Source of the DNA: Bdellovibrio sp. NC01
Lineage (GTDB): Bacteria > Bdellovibrionota > Bdellovibrionia > Bdellovibrionales > Bdellovibrionaceae
Assembly (NCBI RefSeq): GCF_006874625.1
Contig: NZ_CP030034.1
Span: 3,844,001-3,908,000, forward strand
DNA length: 64,000 nt
Direction: 5' to 3'
Position 1 is the stretch's first letter. Each line of letters opens with the position of its first letter. Made by a program: the position numbers and the translations under genes. The notes under the pieces were generated by a model. The model was not told the DNA's origin and made no database searches. It saw only the letters and a program-made list of their open reading frames with translations. Below are positions 36,722 through 51,881 of the stretch, in pieces.

Positions 36722-36860
36722 CAGCTATTTTACATAAACGTCTCAGGGTGAGACTGTTCCGCGAGCTTGCGCTCATATACGGTACAAATCTCACTCTAAT
36801 ATGACGTGAATTCACGGCGATTTAACTACATTTTTACTAAGGTAGACCGATCAGTTATAT

Positions 36861-39152
36861 ATGAAAACTGAGCGTCTCCTGATTCTTTTCATAATCATGT
36901 TTGCGGCGTTACGCACTTTTGCGTCGCCCGCGGCGTTGACCTATCAGGGACGCATTCTTAAAACTGACGGCACCCCTCTTCAGTACGCAAACGTCAATTT
37001 TCTCTTTCAGATTTTAGATCCTTCAGGCACTTGCCTTATCTATCAAGAACAAGTTTCCGGCTATAACATGGTGAACTCTGGTGGTGTGTTTGACGTGCCC
37101 ATTGGTTCGGGCAGCGTACAATATCCAACGACAGGTTCGTTCACGATTCTTGATGCTTTTAATAATACAAAATCATTCACATGCGGAACGTGTTCTGCAA
37201 GTGGCGCCTCTTACTCATGCAGCAATGCTTCGGGCACTTATAATGGGTCTGCTGGAGATAACAGAAAATTGCGCGTGCAGTTCTTTGATGGCAGCGGCTG
37301 GCAAACCATTTCACCCGATTCCATCGTAAGATCCGTACCCTTTGCGGGTTTCGCAGATTCTGCACAAAAGCTTGGAACAAACACGGCAAGTGATTTCGTC
37401 CTTAAAGCCGAAGTCAACAGCAACACCACTTGCGATAGCGGAAGTTTCTTAACTTGGAATGCCACAACAAAACAATTTGGTTGTGCCGGTGTCAGTGGTG
37501 CTTCGGGTGGTACGGTTACCAATGTGTCTTCTGCAAATTCGTATTTAACGGTTGCAAATGGATCAGCCACTCCGTTGCTAACTTTGAATGTAGGCACGGG
37601 TGCAAATACAGTCGCTGCAGGAAATGATTCACGCTTTACAGATTCACGTGCACCCAATGGTTCTGCAGGTGGGGATTTATCAGGAACTTATCCAAATCCA
37701 ACAGTTGCAAAAATCAACGGTCAAGACGTTGATTCAACGGCACCAACAGCCGGTCAGGTTTTAAAATTTGCTTCTTCAAAATGGTCGCCAGCAACTTTAA
37801 CAACAAGTGATATCTCGGGTCTTTCAACGGCACTAAGTGGCCTTGTGACACAATCACAATTCCCTGCAAGCTGTGCCGCGAACCAGACACTGACATTTAT
37901 TTCGCCAAGTGGATCGTTCACTTGTTCTGCGATTGCGATTGGTGAATCAAACATTACTTACTCTTCCCATGCGCAAAATACTTTCCTAGCGGCGCCTACT
38001 TCTGGTTCAGGTACTCCGACTTTTAGAACAATCGCTTCGAGTGATTTACCTGCGGGAATCATGACTGGTACGGGAACAACAAATTATATTCCTTATTATA
38101 GTAGTGCTTCGACATTTGCGAATTCCCCTCTGTCAGTGAATTCTGGAAAAGTTGGCGTAAATACGACTTCGTCACCCGCAGCATTGACCGTAGTTCCTTC
38201 AAATAACGTCGCGACGGTACTTCTTGGTGATCCGACCAGCAACGGTGTGAATCAAACACAATCCCTTTCACAAGTTCCAGCATATACGACGGACACACCA
38301 TTTTCGTTAATCGGTGGTAACTCGTACTTGGATCGTGATGAAGTTCTTATTGGTGGGCAGAATGACGGTGGCAGTTTTGCGCAAGCTCAAGCTGCTGTTC
38401 AAAACATCATCTTCTTTACCACACCTACAAAGAACACGTTGCAAGGCACAGAAAGAATGCGCATCACTTCGCAGGGTAACGTCGGTATTGGCACGAACTC
38501 CCCTGCTTATAAATTGCAAATTAAAGGCGGTATTTTAGCAGTCAAAGGGGACGTCTTTTCAGCCAACGGACCTTCTGCAGAATCAGTTGCTTCTTTCGAT
38601 AAGGAAGGTGCTGGTGGTGTTGCAATTAATATGTTTGCTTCATCTACTAACAACGCTTCAATTTATTTTGGTGACACTGCACAAGCGCAACAAGGTTACA
38701 TCCGTTATAGAACGGACGATACGGTTGCAAATCAATATATGTCGATGCAAGTGAACTCTGCTGAAAGAATGCGTATTACCTCAACCGGTAATGTCGGCAT
38801 CGGCACAACGGCTCCTGCTGCGAAATTGACGGTTGCTGGTGCCATCGTCAGTACTCCGCCAGCACCATTCACTGGCGCAACGGTGGATGTGTCGACAAGT
38901 AACACGCAACTATTAACAAGCGTTGGTGGCTCTGCGATTACGCTTAATAATCTCGCCCACGGTGGTACTTATACTCTGGTGATTCAAGATACGACCTCTC
39001 GTGCGTATACATTCACGGGTTGCAATACCAGCAAGTATTCTCCGCCGAATCAAGCGACGACTGCGGGAACTCACTCCGTCTATGCGATCTTGTCCGTTTA
39101 CAACGGTACGAATTATGACTGCTACATCACGTGGTCGACAGGATTCCAATAA
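36861..39152 (+). CDS. Large exported tail-fibre-like surface protein
   Basis: 763 residues with a signal peptide (cleavage near TFA-SPA). The N-terminal domain (SPAALTYQGRILKTDGTPLQ) is common in surface proteins of Bdellovibrio-like bacteria. The middle is Ser/Thr/Gly/Asn-rich with phage-tail-like pieces (GGDLSGTYPNPTVAKINGQD). Near the C terminus ERMRITSQGNVGIGTNSPA and ERMRITSTGNVGIGTTAPA are two copies of the repeat found in tail fibres and adhesins. It is likely a trimeric or fibrous surface adhesin. The stop overlaps the next start (TAATG). Confidence 0.75.
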   Translation: MKTERLLILFIIMFAALRTFASPAALTYQGRILKTDGTPLQYANVNFLFQILDPSGTCLIYQEQVSGYNMVNSGGVFDVPIGSGSVQYPTTGSFTILDAFNNTKSFTCGTCSASGASYSCSNASGTYNGSAGDNRKLRVQFFDGSGWQTISPDSIVRSVPFAGFADSAQKLGTNTASDFVLKAEVNSNTTCDSGSFLTWNATTKQFGCAGVSGASGGTVTNVSSANSYLTVANGSATPLLTLNVGTGANTVAAGNDSRFTDSRAPNGSAGGDLSGTYPNPTVAKINGQDVDSTAPTAGQVLKFASSKWSPATLTTSDISGLSTALSGLVTQSQFPASCAANQTLTFISPSGSFTCSAIAIGESNITYSSHAQNTFLAAPTSGSGTPTFRTIASSDLPAGIMTGTGTTNYIPYYSSASTFANSPLSVNSGKVGVNTTSSPAALTVVPSNNVATVLLGDPTSNGVNQTQSLSQVPAYTTDTPFSLIGGNSYLDRDEVLIGGQNDGGSFAQAQAAVQNIIFFTTPTKNTLQGTERMRITSQGNVGIGTNSPAYKLQIKGGILAVKGDVFSANGPSAESVASFDKEGAGGVAINMFASSTNNASIYFGDTAQAQQGYIRYRTDDTVANQYMSMQVNSAERMRITSTGNVGIGTTAPAAKLTVAGAIVSTPPAPFTGATVDVSTSNTQLLTSVGGSAITLNNLAHGGTYTLVIQDTTSRAYTFTGCNTSKYSPPNQATTAGTHSVYAILSVYNGTNYDCYITWSTGFQ

Positions 39153-49735: not shown

Positions 49736-50635
49736 CTAACTTTCGGAACCTTTCGACATTGAAACGGCCTGGCCCCCAATGAAAATGACGAGCGCAATTA
49801 TCAATGCGGCAATAAATAAATAGCGTATAAAATTTCCAACGGTAAACGGCTCTTCTTCTTTTTCGACTTCCGCTTTTTTCTCTGGAGGTTTCACACCAAT
49901 TTTCTTAGGAGGTTTTTGAAAATCATCGCCAGCAATTGTTGTCGTTCTTCCTGTGTCGTTTTTCTTTTCAAGTTTTTTGCGCTCGGATTCTGTCCATCCG
50001 GCCATATTCACTTGTGTAGTTTTTTTACGATTACGAACGGCATAACTGCTGCCGCCACGACCGCCAAAGAAACTTCCCGAACCACCACCCTCAAGAGCAA
50101 TTTCAACGACTTTTCCACCGGAAGCATTGCCACCATCAATTCCCGCAGCCGCACGACGAGGCGAACGCATGTTCCTGCTACCGTTACGTGATGCCGAACC
50201 TGCATATGAACTATTGCTTCCGGAACTTCCCGAACTGGAATCACTGGATGAACTCGATGAAGACTTGCTGGAATCAGATGAATCACTATCACCTGATTTA
50301 GAACCACCGGAACTACTGCCTGACCCAGTTCCGAACTTTCCGTCGACTTTTTCAAACTCGGCAATTTCACAACCCATGTCTGCCGCGGTTGGAGTATCCG
50401 CATCACTTGCATCCCATGTTGGCAGTCCACCGGTTTCAAGCAAACACGCCGTGTACGAACCCATGTAATTATCCACAAATTTTTGGAAAGGCTTAAAGAC
50501 TTGATAAATAAGTGCCAACACCATCGATACAGAGATGATCAAAAGAAGAATATACTCAATCGCTGCTTGGCCGCGTTCATTGGCCCCGATGAGTAGTCCA
50601 GCTACATACTTAGATTTCTTCACTCGTGAAGGCAT
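49736..50635 (-). CDS. Flp-type prepilin chimera with serine-rich region and C-terminal membrane anchor
   Basis: 299 residues. Near the N terminus RGQAAIEYILLLI has the Flp prepilin cleavage pattern (G followed by four residues, then EY), and a hydrophobic helix follows. Next come about 60 residues of Ser/Gly/Asp repeats, then Gly/Lys-rich segments, and finally a second membrane helix (FIRYLFIAALIIALVIFIGG). Flp pilins are usually under 80 residues, so this is a pilin-like anchor with a long surface or periplasmic arm. The ATG 50635 shares a -10 with the divergent TPR gene. Confidence 0.7.
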   Translation of the reverse strand: MPSRVKKSKYVAGLLIGANERGQAAIEYILLLIISVSMVLALIYQVFKPFQKFVDNYMGSYTACLLETGGLPTWDASDADTPTAADMGCEIAEFEKVDGKFGTGSGSSSGGSKSGDSDSSDSSKSSSSSSSDSSSGSSGSNSSYAGSASRNGSRNMRSPRRAAAGIDGGNASGGKVVEIALEGGGSGSFFGGRGGSSYAVRNRKKTTQVNMAGWTESERKKLEKKNDTGRTTTIAGDDFQKPPKKIGVKPPEKKAEVEKEEEPFTVGNFIRYLFIAALIIALVIFIGGQAVSMSKGSES

Positions 50636-50647
50636 TTAAGTCATAAT
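50619..50647 (+). promoter_or_regulatory. Promoter of the TPR gene; shared -10 with the divergent prepilin gene
   Basis: Forward: TTCACT (50619-50624), 17-base spacer, CATAAT (50642-50647), seven bases, ATG 50655. Reverse: the overlapping ATAATA (50643-50648) reads TATTAT, with TTCAGT 17 bases upstream, and ends seven bases before ATG 50635. Only 19 bases lie between the starts. Confidence 0.5.
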
Positions 50648-50654
50648 ACAACAC

Positions 50655-51881
50655 ATGAATAACAGACTGAATTTCAATCGCTGCGTATTAACATTGATCT
50701 TGTCTTTTGTCTCAATTCAAGACATCGCCTTCGCACAGGCCCCGACTTCAGGTCAGGTCACGCCGAAAACTCCTCCGCCAATTCCAGCACCCGCAGGTTT
50801 TCCCGCGAAAGCCGCTCCAGCAGAGGCTAAGACAGCAGTTCCCGCCCCCGCAGTGACACCGGAAACACCTGCAACTGTGGCAGCGACTGTGACGACACCT
50901 GCGGATCCGTTGGATGCAAAGATTGAAGCGTTGAAAGTTGAAATCAAAAAGAACCCACGCAACATCAAACAAATTCAAGATCTCGCAGATCTTTTTTATC
51001 AAAAGAAAGATTATGAAAAGACGACTTTGTTGTTGTGGAAACAAATCGACAAATTAGATCGTAATGGAATTTTGTTGTTAGCACGCGCTCATGAACAACG
51101 TAAAGAACCCGGCGAAATGATTCGCGCGTTGAATATCTTGGTTGGTAAAGACGAAAAAGATTTCGAAGCCTTGACGTTGTTGGGTAATGCTTACGTTCTT
51201 CAGAAAAAAACCAAAGACGCTCTTGATGCCTACAAACGTGCGATCGAAGCTAACAGCAAATACGAACCTGCATACTTGGGCGTTGCAAGTCTTTATGAAA
51301 AACGCAATCCACCGAACTTGTATGAATTGCGTATCTTGTATCAAGATATGATCGATAACTTGGGCGCTAAAGGCGCTTACTTGCAAAAACTCTGTGAAGT
51401 GAATGCCAAAGACGATAACACGTTTGAAACAGCCATCGATACGTGCCGCCAGGCCACCGTTAAAGACCCGAAAACCGCCGACGCATGGGTGAACCTAGGT
51501 AACAGCCTGAAAACCGCTGGGAAGACCGATGAGGCGACTTCGACGCTAAAGAAAGCTGCCAACGAATTCCCGAAATCTGAATATGCACAGTATTCATACG
51601 GTAAAACTTTGGAAGAGGCTAAGAATTCAGTCGATGCCATGAAGTACTACAAAGCCGGTACAGAAGCAGACCCTGAATCAGCGCGCAGCTGGTTGGGTTT
51701 AGCGGCAACATCGTTCGACATGAAGAAGTATGAAATTTCGCTTATCGCTTACAAGAACGCTTGTAAGTACGATAAAAAAAATGCCGTGGCCTTTAGAAGA
51801 GCCACGACAGTTTTAAGAAATGCACGAGTGAACGACTGGATCGGAAAGTTTGAAACTGCTTCCGACAACTGTACGTTCTAG
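50655..51881 (+). CDS. Exported TPR-repeat protein
   Basis: 408 residues with a signal peptide (cleavage after IAFA), a Pro/Ala/Thr-rich stretch (residues 25-75), then about eight TPR repeats (for example DAWVNLGNSLKTAGKTDEAT). TPRs bind partner proteins. The divergent prepilin-like gene with shared promoter suggests that both belong to one surface structure. The stop shares bases with rimO on the other strand. Confidence 0.8.
   Translation: MNNRLNFNRCVLTLILSFVSIQDIAFAQAPTSGQVTPKTPPPIPAPAGFPAKAAPAEAKTAVPAPAVTPETPATVAATVTTPADPLDAKIEALKVEIKKNPRNIKQIQDLADLFYQKKDYEKTTLLLWKQIDKLDRNGILLLARAHEQRKEPGEMIRALNILVGKDEKDFEALTLLGNAYVLQKKTKDALDAYKRAIEANSKYEPAYLGVASLYEKRNPPNLYELRILYQDMIDNLGAKGAYLQKLCEVNAKDDNTFETAIDTCRQATVKDPKTADAWVNLGNSLKTAGKTDEATSTLKKAANEFPKSEYAQYSYGKTLEEAKNSVDAMKYYKAGTEADPESARSWLGLAATSFDMKKYEISLIAYKNACKYDKKNAVAFRRATTVLRNARVNDWIGKFETASDNCTF

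Follow-up and report, generated by a model that had tools for sequence, protein, structure and literature searches.

Two divergently oriented genes are separated by a very short gap in the window, i.e., the whole 64,000-nucleotide stretch of Bdellovibrio sp. NC01 DNA that was analyzed (Table 1). The leftward gene encodes a prepilin-like protein with a GQAAIEY motif, an N-terminal hydrophobic helix, a Ser-rich middle, and a C-terminal hydrophobic segment; scans of Pfam and NCBIfam gave no match to this protein. The rightward gene encodes a TPR protein with a signal-peptide-like N-terminus, whose TPR domain matches were general. Orthologues of the TPR protein were found in all 24 species of the genus and in 48 of the 66 genomes of the family. 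Relatives of the prepilin-like protein were present in 126 of the 141 genomes of the order, often close to a divergent gene for a TPR or other exported protein.

Table 1. Coordinates of the two genes and of the putative control elements between and within them (window positions)
Feature	Position	Strand	Remarks
Prepilin-like gene, 299 aa	49736..50635	-	ATG at 50635
TPR protein gene, 408 aa	50655..51881	+	ATG at 50655
Intergenic gap TTAAGTCATAATACAACAC, 19 bp, between the start codons	50636..50654	.	Holds the entire shared -10 region and both discriminators
-10 element CATAAT, TPR gene	50642..50647	+	7 nt before ATG; CATACT in 7 species, AATAAT in 1
-10 element TATTAT, prepilin-like gene	50643..50648	-	7 nt before ATG; TAGTAT in 7 species
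-35-like hexamer TTCACT, TPR promoter	50619..50624	+	17-bp spacer; within prepilin-like codons 4-6; invariant in 24/24 species
-35-like hexamer TTCAGT, prepilin promoter	50666..50671	-	17-bp spacer; within TPR codons 4-6; columns 22-24/24 identical
GTCTCA-ATT-CAAGAC, probable site of a regulator and degenerate copy of GTCTCAnnnTGAGAC	50709..50723	.	Within the codons for the TPR signal peptide; 73 bp upstream of the prepilin start codon; GTCTCA columns 24/24

The original prediction placed the start codons at 50635 (reverse) and 50655 (forward) with 19 bases between them, which proved correct base for base, and its reading of CATAAT and TATTAT as two hexamers that share five positions, with 7 nt between the end of each and its ATG, likewise agrees with the sequence. 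Within the overlap, A(-11) and T(-7) of one hexamer coincide with T(-7) and A(-11) of the other, at 50643 and 50647. A mechanical sigma70 scan of positions 50400-50900 returned a single match, TTCACT-17-CATAAT at 50619-50647 on the plus strand, with 0.4 matches expected in shuffled sequences. Both -35-like hexamers are weak relative to TTGACA (4/6 and 3/6 matching bases on the plus and minus strands, respectively), both 17-bp spacers are conserved, and the position of TTCAGT is the exact mirror of that of TTCACT about 50645. The absence of a Shine-Dalgarno (SD) sequence, which had been claimed for both starts, also holds and extends across the genus: neither start is preceded by an SD-like tetramer (GGAG, GAGG, AGGA, or AAGG) in any of the 24 species, this genome among them (0/24 on each side, 48 starts). 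The gap additionally contains ATGACTTAA, a two-codon ORF on the minus strand (50644-50636) that directly precedes the prepilin ATG and is probably incidental to the -10 element and discriminator.

The 24 species compared, this genome included, carry TPR orthologues that are 49-71% identical, the window's own excepted. In each of them the prepilin-like gene is divergent, with a start-to-start gap of exactly 19 bp, and the 7-nt spacing on both sides and the reciprocal A-11/T-7 arrangement were also found in every species. The shared -10 occurs in three paired forms, CATAAT/TATTAT, CATACT/TAGTAT, and AATAAT/TATTAT (16, 7, and 1 species, respectively); 10 of the 19 gap columns are invariant and most of the others nearly so. 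An in-frame GTG at 50623, codon 5 of the prepilin-like gene and 12 nt downstream of its ATG, is invariant as well (24/24), and in the alignment it coincides with the GTG inferred as the start of this gene in the sister genus g17; codons 2-3 upstream of it are free to vary in amino acid. If translation began at this GTG, only the TPR mRNA would be leaderless, and the prepilin mRNA from the bidirectional promoter would carry a 12-nt leader lacking an SD. We regard this as quite improbable, given that the ATG at 50635 is just as invariant and that codons 2-3 of the TPR gene, the mirror position, vary likewise; the constancy of the GTG can be attributed to its overlap with the TTCACT hexamer.

In an ungapped alignment of 145 bp, conservation drops over the six bases past each start codon and climbs again at TTCACTCG on the left (50619-50626) and GACTGAATTTCAA on the right (50665-50677). 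The complementary strand of the right block contains TTCAGTC, so that TTCAnT lies 17 bp from the -10 element on both sides, mirrored about 50645. When the conservation profile was correlated with its mirror image, the maximum, 0.73, fell at axis 50645.0, the center of the shared -10, which was the best of 81 axes. A strongly conserved symmetric block with similar TTCAnTC half-sites on its two sides might instead be the operator of a dimeric regulator, with both genes transcribed from elsewhere. However, each half comprises a -10-like hexamer with promoter-like spacing both to the ATG and to a -35-like hexamer, and the mirror halves match poorly overall, with 12 of 28 bases complementary. Moreover, the genome contains TTCACTCGN13-17GTCATA at a single place and the right block in no other exact copy, which is unlike the operator of a regulon; we consider this explanation highly improbable.

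The conserved blocks constrain codon choice in both genes. Among species pairs with the same amino acid, the probability of the same codon was 0.92-0.96 over prepilin codons 1-10 and 0.86-0.93 over TPR codons 1-10, compared with gene-wide values of 0.43 and 0.48, respectively, with almost no change in the codons CGA-GTG-AAG of the prepilin-like gene and CTG-AAT-TTC of the TPR gene. This near-freezing of synonymous codons at both gene starts reflects selection at the nucleotide level on a control region extending into the two genes. Part of the frozen codons is due to the regulator site in Table 1 and not to the promoter. Further into the prepilin-like gene, AGTCYAG (window 50595-50601, codons 12-14) is nearly invariant in the genus, with GCT/TCT and GGA/AGA codons frozen.

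Regarding the candidate regulator site, the surrounding TTCTTGnCTTTTGTCTCA (TPR codons 15-20) is frozen: the same-codon probability of codons 16-20 was 0.96 against 0.48 for the gene, and TTG, GTC, and TCA were identical in 24/24 species. The full palindrome GTCTCAnnnTGAGAC is found at the same locus in other families, sometimes in non-coding DNA. It has 14 perfect places in the genome, compared with none for the reversed control, and it is present in 127 of the 140 genomes of the order. Several of the copies inspected are followed, at a distance of 64-129 bp, by a gene for an exported protein; the one at 36740-36754 precedes a mosaic adhesive trimer gene at 36861 (NCBIfam NF053851, E 1.6e-64), a type of gene used in prey recognition (PMC10769870). 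With the degenerate copy situated 73 bp upstream of the prepilin start, a regulator could plausibly act on transcription towards that gene. Our search of open-licence papers found no mention of the GTCTCA palindrome in Bdellovibrio, and GTCTCAnnnTGAGAC, as an undescribed candidate operator, may link the prepilin/TPR pair to mosaic adhesive trimer genes. We also considered that GTCT and AGAC in the TPR codons form an RNA hairpin. It can be seen here and in some relatives, but codon 23 varies and the genus as a whole does not preserve it; this reading was rejected, as palindromic copies in DNA elsewhere account better for the element. No Rfam match to an RNA element was obtained at the locus.

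Outside the genus, the divergent pair persists across the family, with a 19-bp gap in four other genera (L038, L043, L049, and L054) and an 18-bp gap in L057. The reciprocal -11/-7 spacings are 7/7 nt in L038 and L054, 8/6 nt in L043 and L049, and 7/6 nt in L057. Regarding the TPR side, 18 of the 22 orthologues from other genera have a -10-like hexamer whose distance to the ATG is 6-9 nt (mean 3.1 and maximum 9 in 2000 shuffles), and 2 of the 22 have an SD-like tetramer. An alignment of the intergenic pattern among relatives, the check proposed in the original prediction, therefore keeps the 19-bp gap and both 7-nt spacings in 24/24 species and a related form in five further genera, and this conservation supports its core reading of one symmetric shared -10 serving two putatively leaderless starts.

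The prepilin side is more variable outside the genus, often with other spacings or CCGATA. The sigma28/FliA attack-phase promoters of B. bacteriovorus have the form TTAAG-N16-CCGATA (PMC3627812), and likeness to them was seen in g17 (L180-L186), where CCGATA, sigma28-like and in place of TATTAT, stands exactly 9 nt before the inferred prepilin GTG start in all seven genomes. The genus of the window differs in this respect: its elements are of the CATAAT/TATTAT type and CCGATA is absent from the gap in all 24 species, which led us to reject a sigma28 promoter at the locus. An alternative is a directional promoter, in which the leaderless -10 is used by the TPR gene only and the prepilin-like gene is transcribed with a longer leader from a promoter inside the TPR gene. 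The family-wide retention of the leaderless -10 on the TPR side, the sole mechanical sigma70 match on that strand, and the position of the regulator site upstream of the prepilin-like gene would all fit such an arrangement. Nevertheless, the reverse -10 with its 7-nt spacing is equally fixed (24/24 species, with the 7 nt also kept in L038 and L054), the columns of the reverse -35 are conserved in 22-24 of 24 species, and the reverse start lacks an SD in every species. In g17, the prepilin-like gene again has a promoter-like element at its start, namely the CCGATA of all seven genomes, and we judge the directional alternative unlikely.

The layout of the locus goes beyond chance, and divergent starts as close as these are rare in the genome. 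The pattern CATN7ATAMTAN6ATG was found at 2 places in the 3.98-Mb genome, of which the second has AAGG before its ATG. Most of the other genome-wide statistics come from a sample of 1.6 Mb in which genes were called by a crude method. In this sample, 1 of 188 divergent pairs had a start-to-start gap of <20 bp, a count that is approximate because the caller put the TPR start too far downstream and listed the present locus at 58 bp. Among SD-less starts, 17 strong -10 elements lay at 6-7 nt, compared with about 2-3 per position elsewhere, and this small excess indicates a minor class of leaderless genes. In L134, a further divergent pair was observed, its gap being 49 bp (starts near 1423 and 1473, genome 2841423 and 2841473); CATAAT stands 6 nt ahead of the ATG of the minus-strand gene, a start that lacks an SD.

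On the basis of these sequence comparisons, we think it probable that the locus carries a pseudo-symmetric sigma70-type bidirectional promoter that yields two leaderless mRNAs, is occupied by one polymerase at a time, and is likely biased by a regulator. One ATAATA core would serve as the -10 in both orientations, A-11 of one strand being T-7 of the other, and the TTCAnT hexamers, mirror-placed in the first codons of the opposite gene, would act as -35 elements. RNA polymerase would bind in one orientation or the other and start at, or within 1-2 bases of, each ATG, and both mRNAs would be leaderless and translated without an SD. A probable dimeric regulator at 50709-50723 would then bias the promoter. 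In bacteria, bidirectional promoters exploit a near-symmetric -10, with overlapping -10 elements and reciprocal -7 and -11 positions (PMC10268837). Their divergent transcription start sites (TSSs) are most often 18 bp apart because these positions are reciprocal, and distances of 10 or 23 bp are also common (PMC10268837). Applied to 50643 and 50647, this rule predicts TSSs at 50636 and 50654, 18 bp apart, and the distance would be 20 bp if both lay at the A of the ATG; the predicted leaders are 0-2 nt under either TSS spacing.

At promoters of this kind, polymerase holds one orientation at once, so that the two directions are independent at low activity and repress each other when one side is activated (PMC12825309). 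With room for only one polymerase, the output of the two genes here would likewise be independent at low activity and competitive once one side is activated. The original prediction had expected expression of the two putative surface proteins to be tightly tied. This part was unsupported: such promoters fit one polymerase at a time (PMC12825309), and since polymerases could not occupy both orientations together, tight coupling is not expected.

Compared with the pseudo-symmetric bidirectional promoters described by Warman, Grainger and colleagues (PMC10268837, PMC12825309), the locus has in common the shared -10 with reciprocal A-11/T-7, the T at -18 of the forward TSS, the weak -35, and the geometry of the commonest class (TSSs about 18 bp apart, predicted as 18-20 bp here; PMC10268837). 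It differs in that both RNAs would be leaderless, the whole promoter fits into a gap of 19 bp, its -35 regions falling within the coding sequence of the opposite gene, and the genus shows no variation in the exact spacing; the published cases are TSS-mapped, whereas the present locus is known by comparison alone. Leaderless bacterial genes have a -10 directly before the start codon and no SD. The locus resembles them in the -10 placed 7 nt before the ATG, the lack of an SD, the AUG start, and the predicted TSS at or next to the A of AUG, but it differs in being a divergent pair on one shared -10, in a genome where the leaderless class looks minor. Each part is already known, and the locus is a variant in its compact form, with two putatively leaderless genes and a promoter embedded in coding sequence.

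Bacterial bidirectional promoters are reported to be common, yet they have been called hardly studied, and our search of open-licence papers gave nothing on point for a double-leaderless bidirectional promoter. The locus is a naturally fixed case in which promoter elements freeze synonymous codons of two genes. As neither side would have a 5' UTR effect, the choice of polymerase orientation and leaderless translation could be studied here without other variables. A broader reading, which we hold to be evenly balanced, is that this is a fixed minimal promoter: the 19-bp gap would give two leaderless mRNAs, the first codons of each gene would be the -35 region of the other, and the geometry, two start codons, and two N-termini would be locked together across the genus, while a sister lineage keeps the locus with a sigma28-like CCGATA beside the prepilin start codon. 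The promoter type may accordingly have been swapped in evolution with the start-codon-proximal layout retained. In family f5 (L189, L190, L191, and L214), inverted CCGATA pairs flank the same divergent gap, e.g., CTTCCGATAAG...CTTATCGGAAG in L190, which suggests a symmetric promoter of another sigma type.
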